Positions 25,861-62,526 of a DNA stretch of 64,000 nucleotides are shown one piece after another. The DNA comes from Anaerovibrio sp. JC8 (GTDB lineage: Bacteria > Bacillota > Negativicutes > Selenomonadales > Selenomonadaceae): assembly GCF_002100115.1 (NCBI RefSeq), contig NZ_ANBM01000006.1, forward strand, positions 62,001-126,000, written 5' to 3'. The notes under the pieces are model-generated. The model was given only the letters and a program-made list of their open reading frames with translations. It was not told where the DNA came from and searched no databases. The stretch's first letter is position 1; each line of letters opens with the position of its first letter. The position numbers and the translations under genes were made by a program.

Positions 25861-26715
25861 TTACAGAATTTCTACCAGTTCAATCTGGAAATTCAGTTCC
25901 TTGCCAGCCAGCTCGTGGTTGGCATCAAAGGTAATCTCTGTATCGGTCTTTTCGGTAACGGTTACAGGGAAAGGCTGTCCCATAGGATTGGTAAGGAATA
26001 CCCGCTGACCCTTTTCCAGATTCTCAGCCCCCGGAACCTCAGCAATCTCCACGGTCATAATGGCATTAGGATCTGCCTCGCCATAGGCATCCTTTGGCTC
26101 CATGTGGGCATCCTTGATCTCTCCCACCTTCATATCAGCCACAGCCACATCAAAGCCGCGAATCATCATGCCGGCACCGCATACAAATTCCAGCGGCTCA
26201 CCGCGGTCATAGGAGGAATCAAACTGGGTACCGTCGTTGAGGGTCCCCTTGTAATGAACCCGAACCTTCTTGCCGACATTAGGGCCTTCAATGCCCGGAA
26301 CCGTATGGGAACCACAGCCGCCGCAGCCCTCGTGGCCGCCACAGCCACCTTCCTCATGATGGCCGCAGTCATGGTCCTCACCGTGATGGTGATCACAGTT
26401 TACACCGGAATTTACCAGCTCACCGGCCAGATAGGCCTCCACAGCAGCATCCACATCCCCGGAAGCTCCGGCACACAGCTCAATGCCTGCATTGGCCAGC
26501 GCCTGCTGGGCACCGCCGCCAATACCACCACAGATAAGCACATCAATGGAATTATCTGCCAAAAGACCAGCCAAAGCGCCATGCCCACTGCCATTGGAGC
26601 CCATAATCTCTGAAGATACTACCTTATTGTCCTCAACCTCAAAAACCTTGAAGCTCTCAGTCTTGCCAAAATGCTGAAAAACATTGCCATTATCATATGT
26701 TACTGCAATTTTCAT
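25861..26715 (-). CDS. NifX-type Fe-Mo-cluster-binding domain fused to SlyD-like FKBP isomerase
   Basis: 284 aa. Residues 1-105 form the dinitrogenase iron-molybdenum cofactor (NifX/NifB C-terminal) fold ([22 protein letters not shown]). Residues 110-138 are a His/Cys/Gly-rich linker ([20 protein letters not shown]) able to bind metal. Residues 145-284 are an FKBP peptidyl-prolyl isomerase with an inserted IF domain, as in SlyD ([18 protein letters not shown], then MKVGE). A metal-handling chaperone for an iron-sulfur or nickel protein is a reasonable guess. No nitrogenase gene is present. Its promoter is similar to that of the next gene. Confidence 0.83.
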
Positions 26716-27408: not shown

Positions 27409-28689
27409 TTATACGGCCTTGAAAGCCTGGTCAAGGTCGGCAATAATGTCGTCAATGTGTTCAGTACCGATGGAAAGACGGATGGTGCTACGGCTAATGC
27501 CCACATCAGCCAGCTCCTCATCAGTGAGCTGGGAATGGGTAGTGGTTGCCGGATGGATAACCAGGGACTTCACGTCAGCTACATTGGCCAGGAGAGAGAA
27601 GATCTTCAGGCTGTCAATGAACTTGAAGGCTTCCTCCTGTCCACCCTTGATTTCAAAGGTGAAGATGGAGCCGCCGCCATTAGGGAAGTACTTCTGGTAA
27701 AGAGCATGATCCGGATGGTCGGAGAGGCTTGGATGATTAACCTTGGTTACCTTAGGATTCTTTACGAGATAATCAATAACCTTCTTGGTGTTCTCTGCAT
27801 GACGCTCCAGGCGGAGGGACAGGGTCTCAGTACCCTGCAGGAGCAGGAATGCAGCAAATGGAGAAATGGTAGCACCCTGATCACGGAGCAGAATTGCACG
27901 GATATAGATAGCAAATGCTGCCTTGCCGGCGGCCTCAGTGAACTTTACGCCGTGATAGCTTGGGTTTGCCTCGGAGATCCATGGATACTTGCCGCTCTTG
28001 GCCCAGTCGAAGTTACCGCTGTCCACGATAACACCGCCCAGAGTAGTACCATGACCGCCAATGAACTTGGTAGCGGAATGTACCACGATATCTGCACCGT
28101 GCTCAATTGGACGGATAAGATACGGAGTACCAAAGGTGTTATCAATTACCAGTGGCAGGCCGTGCTTGTGGGCCAGCTTGGCAATAGCATCAATATCCGG
28201 AATATCGGAGTTAGGATTGCCCAGGGTCTCAATGTAGATAGCCTTGGTATTCTCCTGAATAGCTCCCTCAATTTCCTTCAGGTTGTGGGCATCCACAAAG
28301 GTAGTCTCAATGCCATAAAGTGGCAGGGTGTGTGCCAGAAGATTTGCAGAACCGCCGTAGATGGTCTTCTGAGCAACAATATGCTCACCGGCCTTTGCCA
28401 GAGCCTGAATGGTATAGGTAATGGCTGCGGCACCGGAAGCCAGGGCCAGACCGGCTACACCGCCCTCCAGAGCTGCGATTCTTTCCTCAAATACGCCCTG
28501 GGTGGAGTTGGTCAGGCGGCCGTAGATGTTACCAGCATCTGCCAGACCGAAGCGGTCAGCTGCATGCTGGGAATTGCGGAATACATAAGAGGTAGTTGCG
28601 TAAATTGGCACTGCTCTTGCATCAGATGCTGGATCTGGGTTCTCCTGACCTACGTGAAGCTGAAGGGTTTCAAATTTATAGTTGCTCAT
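27409..28689 (-). CDS. metY: O-acetylhomoserine sulfhydrylase (aminocarboxypropyltransferase)
   Basis: 426 aa. The PLP-binding lysine is in HSATKFIGGHG (about residue 208), preceded by ALASGAAAI and ETLGNPNSDIPD. Length and motifs fit MetY of the Cys/Met gamma-family. It makes homocysteine (or methionine) from O-acetylhomoserine and sulfide (or methanethiol). Upstream, 28764-28928 holds a cysteine-rich leader ORF and alternative hairpins, and an Rrf2 regulator is divergent, so the gene is expected to answer to sulfur supply. Confidence 0.92.
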   Translation of the reverse strand: MSNYKFETLQLHVGQENPDPASDARAVPIYATTSYVFRNSQHAADRFGLADAGNIYGRLTNSTQGVFEERIAALEGGVAGLALASGAAAITYTIQALAKAGEHIVAQKTIYGGSANLLAHTLPLYGIETTFVDAHNLKEIEGAIQENTKAIYIETLGNPNSDIPDIDAIAKLAHKHGLPLVIDNTFGTPYLIRPIEHGADIVVHSATKFIGGHGTTLGGVIVDSGNFDWAKSGKYPWISEANPSYHGVKFTEAAGKAAFAIYIRAILLRDQGATISPFAAFLLLQGTETLSLRLERHAENTKKVIDYLVKNPKVTKVNHPSLSDHPDHALYQKYFPNGGGSIFTFEIKGGQEEAFKFIDSLKIFSLLANVADVKSLVIHPATTTHSQLTDEELADVGISRSTIRLSIGTEHIDDIIADLDQAFKAV

Positions 28690-28763
28690 AATAAAATCTC
28701 CTTTTCAATCCAATATTATTTAATGATAATTTCTCAATAATTTTCAGCGAAATCGTAGCAAAT

Positions 28764-28863
28764 AAAAACGGGGGCTTTATCCAAGCTCCCGGGCACATGG
28801 CTGCACAATCAGCTGCATTCCAAAAAAGACGGACGCATCTGGCCATCATTACATGCCCGGGAG
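28764..28863 (-). promoter_or_regulatory. Predicted transcription attenuator of metY
   Basis: Terminator: GGGAGCTT / AAAGCCCCC stem (28790-28770), then GTTTTTATTTG. Competing antiterminator: CTCCCGGGCATGT (28863-28851) pairs with ATGTGCCCGGGAG (28798-28786), 13 pairs with two wobbles, and uses up the left arm of the terminator. The leader ORF covers the upstream arm and stops at 28809. So translation can decide which hairpin forms. Confidence 0.65.
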
Positions 28864-28919
28864 TAGCACATTCGACAAACCCATGCTGCTGTCTTACAGG
28901 TGTTGTTTACTCCATACAT
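28809..28919 (-). CDS. Cysteine-rich leader peptide of metY
   Basis: 36 aa if started at ATG 28919 (9 bases after GAGGAG); an in-frame ATG at 28928 is too close to that site. The peptide has Cys in NTCK, WVCRMCYSRAC and a late FLECS, five of 36 residues, which is far above usual. It lies between a consensus promoter and the terminator in front of metY. A role as sensor of charged tRNA-Cys is inferred. Confidence 0.6.
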   Translation of the reverse strand: MYGVNNTCKTAAWVCRMCYSRACNDGQMRPSFLECS

Positions 28920-28989
28920 AGCATCCATCTCCTCTCTTCCAGTATTAGTCTTTAATCTTCAATCTTTGTTGCTCAATTTCGATGTCTTA

Positions 28990-29018
28990 ATATTAAACCT
29001 ATATGCCTACTATGTCAA
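28990..29018 (-). promoter_or_regulatory. metY leader promoter
   Basis: TTGACA (29018-29013) and TAATAT (28995-28990) with a 17-base spacer; start expected near 28983. ATAGGTTTAA lies inside the spacer/-10 and recurs in the divergent promoter at 29064, a candidate regulator site. Confidence 0.65.
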
Positions 29019-29035
29019 TAGGTAAAAATAAAAAT

Positions 29036-29087: not shown

Positions 29088-29495
29088 ATGATTTCAACAA
29101 AGGGAAGATATGCAGTAAGATTTATGATAGACCTGGCCCAGCAGCCCGATGACAAGCCGGTAACTCTGGACGATGTGGCACAGCGTCAGGAGATTTCCAA
29201 AAAATATATGGAGCGAGTGGTAAAAATGCTGGTAAGTGCCGGACTGGTTAAGGGTACCAGTGGCAAGGGCGGCGGCTACCGTCTCCTGAAAAAGCCGGAG
29301 GAATACAATGTTATGGAAATTCTTCAGATTACCGAGGGACGCCTCACCTCAGTAGCCTGCCTCCAGGAGGGAGCAGAACAGTGTCCCCGGGAGGCAAATT
29401 GCCTGACAGTGCCTATGTGGAGGCTCTTTGACGAAATGGTCAGTGATTTCTTCACCAATATAACCATTGCCGACCTGATCAGAGGTCATGAATAA
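29088..29495 (+). CDS. Rrf2-family transcriptional regulator (CymR/IscR-like)
   Basis: 135 aa, AAGGAGGG 8 bases before ATG. MISTKGRYAVRFMIDLA and the GxGGGYRL wing are the winged-helix signature. Three cysteines in ACLQEGAEQCPREANCLT match the spacing region that holds [2Fe-2S] in IscR, although CymR-type members act through cysteine synthase instead. Divergence from metY with shared ATAGGTTTAA elements suggests that it controls sulfur assimilation and itself. Confidence 0.87.
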   Translation: MISTKGRYAVRFMIDLAQQPDDKPVTLDDVAQRQEISKKYMERVVKMLVSAGLVKGTSGKGGGYRLLKKPEEYNVMEILQITEGRLTSVACLQEGAEQCPREANCLTVPMWRLFDEMVSDFFTNITIADLIRGHE

Positions 29496-62159: not shown

Positions 62160-62400
62160 AAGCCGCCCTCAAAAGAGGACGGCCGAACATTGCATATAAC
62201 ATTATAACGTGATGCTAGAACTGCGTAATCCCCTTCCCATCTCTCGTAGGTCAAACGGTGATTGTTAATCAGGCAGTTCTCCTGGCTCCGGTTCACAGCT
62301 CCTCCGCGCCTTCCCAGAGTCTCCCCCAGTGACATTTCTTGCAGATTCGCTCCCCGATACAGTGGCGTGACCGCGCCGGCCTTAAACCGGCTTTTCTATT
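62160..62400 (-). promoter_or_regulatory. Cobalamin riboswitch with terminator
   Basis: Leftward RNA with the conserved B12 box AGCCAGGAGAACTGCC (around 62286-62271), upstream GGGAGCGAA...GCAAGAAATGTCACTGGGG, and GCGCGGTCACGCCACTGTA at the 5' side. Just before btuF the stem GCCGTCCTC / GAGGGCGGC (62162-62183) followed by TTTTAT forms a terminator, so B12 should end transcription early. Confidence 0.88.
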
Positions 62401-62526
62401 AAGTACTATGACGCCTAATCCGTTATTTTTTTATTAATTAATACGCCATAGATAATATCATCATACAAATTTTCTGTCAACGCAAAATAAAATTAACAAG
62501 TCCTTTTACCTATAGTTCGCAACATA

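Follow-up and report, generated by a model that had tools for sequence, protein, structure and literature searches.

Sulfur amino acid genes of Bacillota are controlled by S-box (SAM) riboswitches and T-boxes, and their control is usually ascribed to SAM riboswitches, T-boxes and CymR. Leader peptides offer another route. As outlined in PMC8632094, the uORFC-8-2 motif consists of tandem-Cys attenuators before cysS in Rhodobacterales, for which tRNA-Cys attenuation is predicted. The account of the Actinobacteria cys/cbs operons in PMC1262725 describes Cys leader peptides with no conserved terminator hairpin and suggests Rho, and PMC2965389 outlines His leader peptides before hisS paralogues in bacilli. 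Here we analysed a 64,000-nt stretch of the genome of Anaerovibrio sp. JC8 (the window; contig NZ_ANBM01000006.1, positions 62,001 to 126,000), in which a preliminary description had placed a Cys-codon attenuator upstream of metY. In the open-access literature searched, we recognised no description of a metY leader peptide.

Layout of the metY leader

The gene that the leader is predicted to control is metY, and the MetY protein of the window is 98% identical to that of Anaerovibrio lipolyticus DSM 3074. The preliminary description had listed a promoter, a Cys-rich ORF of 36 aa, an antiterminator and an overlapping terminator with a T-run; we located all of these on the minus strand, in the order promoter, leader ORF, antiterminator, terminator and metY (Table 1). 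We also found that the ORF covers one antiterminator arm and stops beside the other, as had been noted: arm A lies within the coding sequence and arm B lies 3' of the stop codon. The five Cys residues of the leader are at codons 8, 15, 18, 23 and 35. The A:B duplex has a predicted energy of –28.4 kcal/mol; the duplex itself stood, and its size, earlier given as 13 pairs, came to 16 (11 + 5). The competing B:C terminator hairpin spans 28791-28769 with one mismatch and is followed by the T-run. The P1 helix and the CGA-ATG core are elements absent from the preliminary description.

Table 1. Features of the metY leader region, in window coordinates
Feature	Position	Strand	Remark
Divergent Rrf2-family regulator	29088..29495	+	PF02082 126.2 bits, TIGR00738 130.7 bits
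Operator-like dyad CCTATTGACATAGTAGG	29006..29022	–	over –35 box; possible Rrf2 site
Sigma-70-like promoter TTGACA-17-TAATAT	29018-28990	–	10/12 consensus matches
P1 helix, 5' arm	28921..28935	–	includes the leader's Shine-Dalgarno sequence; pairs with 28836-28822
Leader ORF MYGVNNTCKTAAWVCRMCYSRACNDGQMRPSFLECS + TGA, 36 aa	28809..28919	–	ATG 28919, stop 28811-28809
Cys codon 8 (TGT)	28896..28898	–	earliest possible stall site; masked fold P(A:B) 0.90
Cys codon 15 (TGT)	28875..28877	–	final Cys ahead of switch point; masked fold P(A:B) 0.89
CGA-ATG (Arg16-Met17)	28869..28874	–	near-invariant core, switch point
Antiterminator arm A CTCCCGGGCATG	28863-28852	–	leader codons 19-23; pairs with arm B, covaries
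Arm A extension ATGGC	28842..28846	–	partner GCCAT at 28801-28797
P1 helix, 3' arm	28822..28836	–	able to hide the leader's ribosome-binding site
Arm B GCCATGTGCCCGGGAG	28801-28786	–	common to antiterminator and terminator; 3' of stop
Terminator arm C AAGCCCCCG	28777-28769	–	B:C hairpin –11.9 kcal/mol
Intrinsic terminator T-run TTTTTATTT	28760..28768	–	identified by sequence
metY, O-acetylhomoserine aminocarboxypropyltransferase	27409..28689	–	TIGR01326 626.5 bits, cut-off 495.1

The window leader had no match in Rfam at the gathering score, with the SAM riboswitch and T-box models included, and this agrees with the earlier statement that neither element is present; the best sub-threshold match was S15-Flavobacteria (26.6 bits against 46.5). 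Nor did any of 20 related loci show a match at the gathering score in its metY leader. Taken by itself, the single sequence proves little, because a simple terminator scan found 0 terminators, missing the one in the window's leader, and the whole leader folded no better than its shuffles (z = –0.53; 63 of 200 shuffles at least as good). What settles, at the level of sequence, that the leader stands beyond chance is the comparison across genomes, not the window sequence alone.

Elsewhere in the window we observed a cobalamin riboswitch (62255-62433, minus strand, 89 bits) and, at 25861-26715 (minus strand), a protein whose MrpORP/NifB-end-like N-terminus is joined through a linker rich in His and Cys to a portion of the FKBP-type isomerase kind.

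Leader families and the CGA-ATG core

The MetY-anchored set comprised 93 upstream regions (the best 80 of at least 586 loci plus 14 of the genus, minus one duplicate). When these were sorted by peptide pattern, 25 were class 1 (C-R-M-x-x-S-R; eight of them from the window's genus), 28 were class 2 (core R-x-N-[FY]-R-x-G-R-M) and 38 were neither, including the class-1-like L009 and L108. The class-1 script had returned two false rows among the 93 loci (L012 and L046), which were dropped, and had missed both L009, where TGG stands in place of CGA, and L108, which has CGA. Over all searches we collected 59 class-1 leaders, that of the window among them, in which the related core is typically MCC-R-M-xx-SRA.

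Class-1 DNA patterns matched in 18 of the 38 genomes reached through the loci, which had been chosen for having leaders of this kind; in 10 of 391 genomes of the class of G214, counting the centre and G194; in 17 of 250 genomes of the family of G220, counting the centre and a chance match (L197); and in 2 of 199 genomes of the window's phylum, which are the window itself and a second chance match (L223). L197 was rejected as a leader because it falls inside a coding gene, the L223 match was rejected as a non-leader, and L096, a class-2 leader, was removed before the class-1 counts. A reversed control pattern gave one match (G627) among the matches listed. Of 48 distinct DNA-pattern matches, 46 were leaders, in frame within the leader ORF, and a Shine-Dalgarno sequence was found (in the sequence only) for 54 of the 59 class-1 leaders.

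An alignment of related metY leaders had been proposed earlier as a check on the Cys codons, and they are conserved: among the 25 MetY-anchored class-1 leaders, 23 have a Cys codon immediately 5' of CGA and 15 have one at the position before that. The corresponding counts for all class-1 leaders, 53 and 42 of 59, are partly fixed by the search patterns. Cys at position –1 was fixed by the patterns run on the 38 locus-derived genomes and on the class of G214. Because pattern-found loci have CGAATG by requirement, we judged its conservation on the 93 MetY-anchored loci only. Cys makes up 10.8% of the residues in 54 leaders with a clear start. Met is also common in the leaders (8.9%, not counting the start), so methionine may be sensed in addition to cysteine.

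The genes downstream of class-1 leaders are mostly sulfur-amino-acid genes. In addition to metY, which was recognised by sequence downstream of pattern-found leaders, we found genes for NlpA/MetQ lipoproteins (L173, L180, L181, L182, L184, L185, L190), a MetN-type ATPase scoring below its model's cut-off (L187), SBP_bac_3 or SBP_bac_3-NlpA fusion proteins (L161, L191, L194), an ABC permease (L177, with a close relative, L178, that had no match), Cys/Met PLP enzymes (L183, L192), GST-like proteins (L204; L186, several hundred nt off; L176, by likeness) and a PepT-like peptidase (L164). One leader lies 655 nt from a gene for a glutamate-cysteine-ligase-like protein (L179), and in L160 the contig end is reached downstream of the leader. 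Eight leader peptides tried against NCBIfam gave no meaningful match (best E 0.13), and seven tried against Pfam gave none. Class-1 leaders are apparently a broad family of cysteine attenuators without a name.

Class-2 leaders encode a different peptide, FxxL[VL]RxN[FY]RxGRM, with the stop often directly after Met and sometimes no Cys codon, and we saw no terminator by eye in them. The class-2 pattern was found in 19 of 245 genomes, with the centre and two known genomes included. Loci with class-2 leaders include L044 (–144 to –78 from metY), L047, L054, L155 and L205-L221; these leaders precede metY, and in L218 and L221 NlpA genes. A further type of leader, with many Met, Cys and Trp residues (for example TITMMWMCMWICQMC), stands in tandem upstream of a class-2 leader at about –200 to –360 from metY (L044, L054, L056, L096, L104); the two are separated by a CCGGGAG...CCGG terminator and its T-run in L044 and L054.

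At MetY-anchored sites, chosen irrespective of codon, the Arg of the Arg-Met pair is encoded by CGA in 25/25 class-1 and 25/27 class-2 leaders; the class-2 exceptions are CGC in L043 and AGG in L105, and L067 has Val. In the metY genes of these loci, CGA is used least among the Arg codons (28 of 1204, 2.3%), and at each of two other class-2 Arg positions all six codons are used. Among 58 tRNA genes found in the window's genome, the tRNA-Arg anticodons are TCT, CCT, CCG and ACG (twice), with no TCG, in a set that is incomplete, since tRNA-Ile(GAT) is missing from it, and that may have missed tRNA-Arg(TCG) as well. With ACG present and TCG not found, CGA is probably decoded by inosine wobble of tRNA-Arg(ACG). 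In a his leader assay outlined in PMC4046918, CGA was decoded slowly. We considered, and set aside, a possible likeness between CGAAT and the T-loop of tRNA.

With a leader-peptide HMM, we found the leader before metY in 10 of the 16 genomes of the genus; nine of these ten rows had gone into the model, leaving G012 as the sole independent match (E 1.7e-9). The six genomes without the leader are G006, which has no close metY (best 44%), G010 and G011, where no such leader was seen by eye, and G004, G008 and G014, where a shorter ORF has VMCR with the CRM core missing. Elsewhere in the family (173 genomes), the HMM gave weak matches only (79 of 189 genomes), which we judged to be chance; none resembled a leader before a sulfur gene among the 17 of 20 listed weak loci that were judged (all but L130, L131 and L133), with downstream ORFs assessed by eye and without a family scan. 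Leaders of both classes also stand before metY in other phyla, in an Aeromonadales MAG (L091), a Fibrobacter MAG (L108) and Treponema or Spirochaetaceae MAGs (L042, L043, L067, L105). Within the window's family the leader was found in one genus only, and this distribution suggests horizontal spread of metY together with its leader.

Pairing of the arms and the switch position

Covarying stems had likewise been proposed as a check. Over 54 leaders, 99.3% of A:B cells pair and 17 are changed on both sides; 1000 shuffles, which keep the kinship among leaders, gave a mean of 2.7 such double changes and a maximum of 8, and slid versions of the pairing gave 1 to 9. Since arm B was selected for being most complementary to A, the comparison leans towards pairing. 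These counts and the folds below omit L007, L008, L009, L112 and L202, where arm B was misplaced or had 7-8 pairs; by eye, the first four do have such arms, and in L202 arm B lies nearly at the stop codon. In a MAFFT alignment of 10 chosen leaders, we found 4 double-changed cells, a value reached in 0/500 shuffles (3 cells when slid by –1); in the same alignment pair types were not in excess, and 500/500 shuffles reached the observed value.

Where arm A carries ACA instead of GCA (Ala to Thr), arm B carries a matching change, which indicates that RNA pairing constrains the SRA part of the peptide. The extension ATGGC:GCCAT can form 5/5 pairs in 39 of 54 leaders, as compared to a mean of 33.2 with flanks permuted and 15.9 with letters shuffled; it is mostly conserved sequence with little covariation. 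The P1 helix of the window has 15 bp and a duplex energy of –21.3 kcal/mol, which 0/60 shuffles reached. A P1-type helix is present at p ≤ 0.05 in 20 of 54 leaders, where about 3 would be expected, and many leaders have no such helix; seven of the 20 are from the genus, and six of these are close relatives.

To follow the position of the ribosome, we refolded the 54 leaders codon by codon with a footprint masked from –18 to +12 nt relative to the first base of the A-site codon, a rule of thumb, in equilibrium folds that ignore kinetics. The antiterminator is favoured in 41/54 leaders when the A site holds the final Cys position, in 25/54 when it holds CGA and in 0/54 when it holds ATG, where 47/54 fall on the terminator side. 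In these folds the ribosome covers arm A two codons past the last Cys, and the preference for the terminator persists to about codon +12 from CGA. The ribosome-free family average is 0.59 for the antiterminator versus 0.33. In the window, a ribosome at Cys8 or Cys15 leaves the antiterminator strongly preferred (Table 1), and this supports the earlier proposal that a stall at early Cys codons frees it. Stalls at Cys18 and Cys23 would mask arm A, so only Cys8 and Cys15 fit as sensors in the window. Modelled in this way, Cys stalling is well supported as the 'on' state.

The 'off' state is a different matter. The preliminary description had held that full translation favours the terminator, and the folds do not support this: a ribosome whose A site holds the stop codon sits well past arm A and leaves that arm uncovered, so that the antiterminator is favoured in 22/54 leaders and has P 0.99 in the window. 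The Cys codons thus stand just ahead of the boundary, but a finished leader does not bring about termination by itself. In the folding model, termination needs a ribosome at about codons +1 to +12 from CGA. In the window, the antiterminator is also lost at codons –5 to –2 before CGA (P 0.01-0.18), and with arm A masked the terminator side reaches only P 0.55; the modelled folds at codons –5 to –2 run against the clean picture there.

Proposed mechanism and comparison with known attenuators

Taken together, these data make it probable that the leader is a cysteine-responsive, ribosome-mediated transcription attenuator of metY with an 'off' pause at CGA-ATG. The claim of ribosome-mediated attenuation with a Cys sensor thus holds up in the conserved Cys before CGA, the masked folds and the sulfur-amino-acid genes downstream. 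A first ribosome would begin translation of the 36-codon ORF. When Cys-tRNA is short, it would stall at Cys8 or Cys15 with its front edge just short of arm A; the free arm A would pair with B, the terminator would be blocked and metY would be transcribed. When Cys-tRNA is plentiful, the ribosome would clear the Cys codons, slow at CGA-ATG and cover the start of A, the B:C hairpin would form and transcription would end at the T-run. The signal would be Cys starvation, and we propose the pause at CGA-ATG as the 'off' state. Once a first ribosome has initiated, P1 may sequester the leader's ribosome-binding site and leave the decision to that single ribosome, and the Rrf2-type regulator at the promoter may be a second control. 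More tentatively, and with somewhat more doubt than confidence, the leader could be read as part of a widespread system of gut and rumen bacteria with a timer, in which CGA-AUG, apparently decoded by the inosine tRNA, parks the ribosome on arm A as the default 'off', the Cys codons one step earlier flip it 'on', and the sister class, which ends in LVRxNFRxGRM(stop) and would keep the same codon pair with no need for Cys codons or a terminator, may be a true arrest peptide.

A nascent peptide could instead arrest the ribosome at Arg-Met in response to a sulfur metabolite, with tRNA charging not the signal; masking of A by this ribosome would then cause termination. The class-2 metY leaders, with their conserved peptide, their frequent stop right after Met and their occasional lack of Cys, fit such an arrest; L051 and L055 combine the class-2 peptide with arms A, B and C of class 1, and in MetY-anchored class 1 CGA is kept more strictly than the preceding Cys. 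By the criterion of a conserved peptide before the stall site, class 2 appears to fit and class 1 fails: at residues –10 to –5 of class 1, none is shared by more than 15 of 59 leaders, which is unusual for an arrest peptide, and the matched Ala-Thr changes in arm B explain the SRA residues by RNA pairing. Since the residues before MCC vary, we rank this explanation second for class 1 and consider it unlikely.

It is more improbable still that CGAATG and the arms form an RNA-level element that binds a protein or ligand, with the reading frame incidental. The near-invariance of CGAATG as nucleotides and the strong conservation of both antiterminator arms speak for such an element; however, nearly all distinct DNA-pattern matches are in frame, most leaders have a Shine-Dalgarno sequence, there is no Rfam match in the leaders searched, and in class 2 synonymous change is free around the conserved peptide.

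The divergent Rrf2-family regulator has three closely spaced Cys and scored below the cut-offs of the IscR and CymR models. A loose form of the dyad motif was found upstream of metY in 23/26 class-1, 17/28 class-2 and 16/39 other loci, and in 1/93 within the initial 600 nt of the metY coding sequence; judging from this arrangement, the regulator is a candidate protein partner of the dyad. That metY is controlled solely at the promoter by this regulator, with the leader a relic, is very unlikely, for although the Rrf2 gene adjoins and the dyad that overlaps the –35 box is also seen upstream of related metY genes, the arms covary and the leader precedes several unrelated sulfur genes, and a relic would decay.

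If the cysteine attenuator with a CGA-ATG pause is correct, it would add to the control of sulfur-amino-acid genes a cysteine switch of gut and rumen bacteria that is read by translation, common to several kinds of sulfur gene and unmatched by any Rfam family in the leaders searched. The CGA-AUG core also opens to test whether an attenuator can be set to 'off' by one conserved codon that is slow among its synonyms.

Unlike the S-box and T-box systems, neither of which was found in the window leader, the element appears to need translation. Like uORFC-8-2, as that motif is described, it has a leader ORF with Cys codons in tandem, followed by an intrinsic terminator; it differs in phylum and gene, and no CGA-ATG core is mentioned in the account of uORFC-8-2 cited above. 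The Actinobacteria leaders, in the account cited, likewise are short ORFs with Cys codons ahead of sulfur genes, and differ in that their Cys run is near the stop codon. The bacilli His leaders, as outlined, also combine an amino-acid leader peptide with a terminator in Bacillota, and differ in the amino acid, histidine, and in the genes. The trp and his attenuators of enteric bacteria share with the metY leader codons for the product amino acid, a stall that frees an antiterminator arm, an arm common to two structures and an intrinsic terminator. In contrast to them, arm A here lies inside the ORF with the stop codon downstream of it, the stop codon sets no 'off' state in the folds, and a rare CGA-ATG stands at the switch point. 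On the basis of the modelled folds, we would file the metY leader as a variant of ribosome-mediated attenuation that is distinct from the trp/his type.
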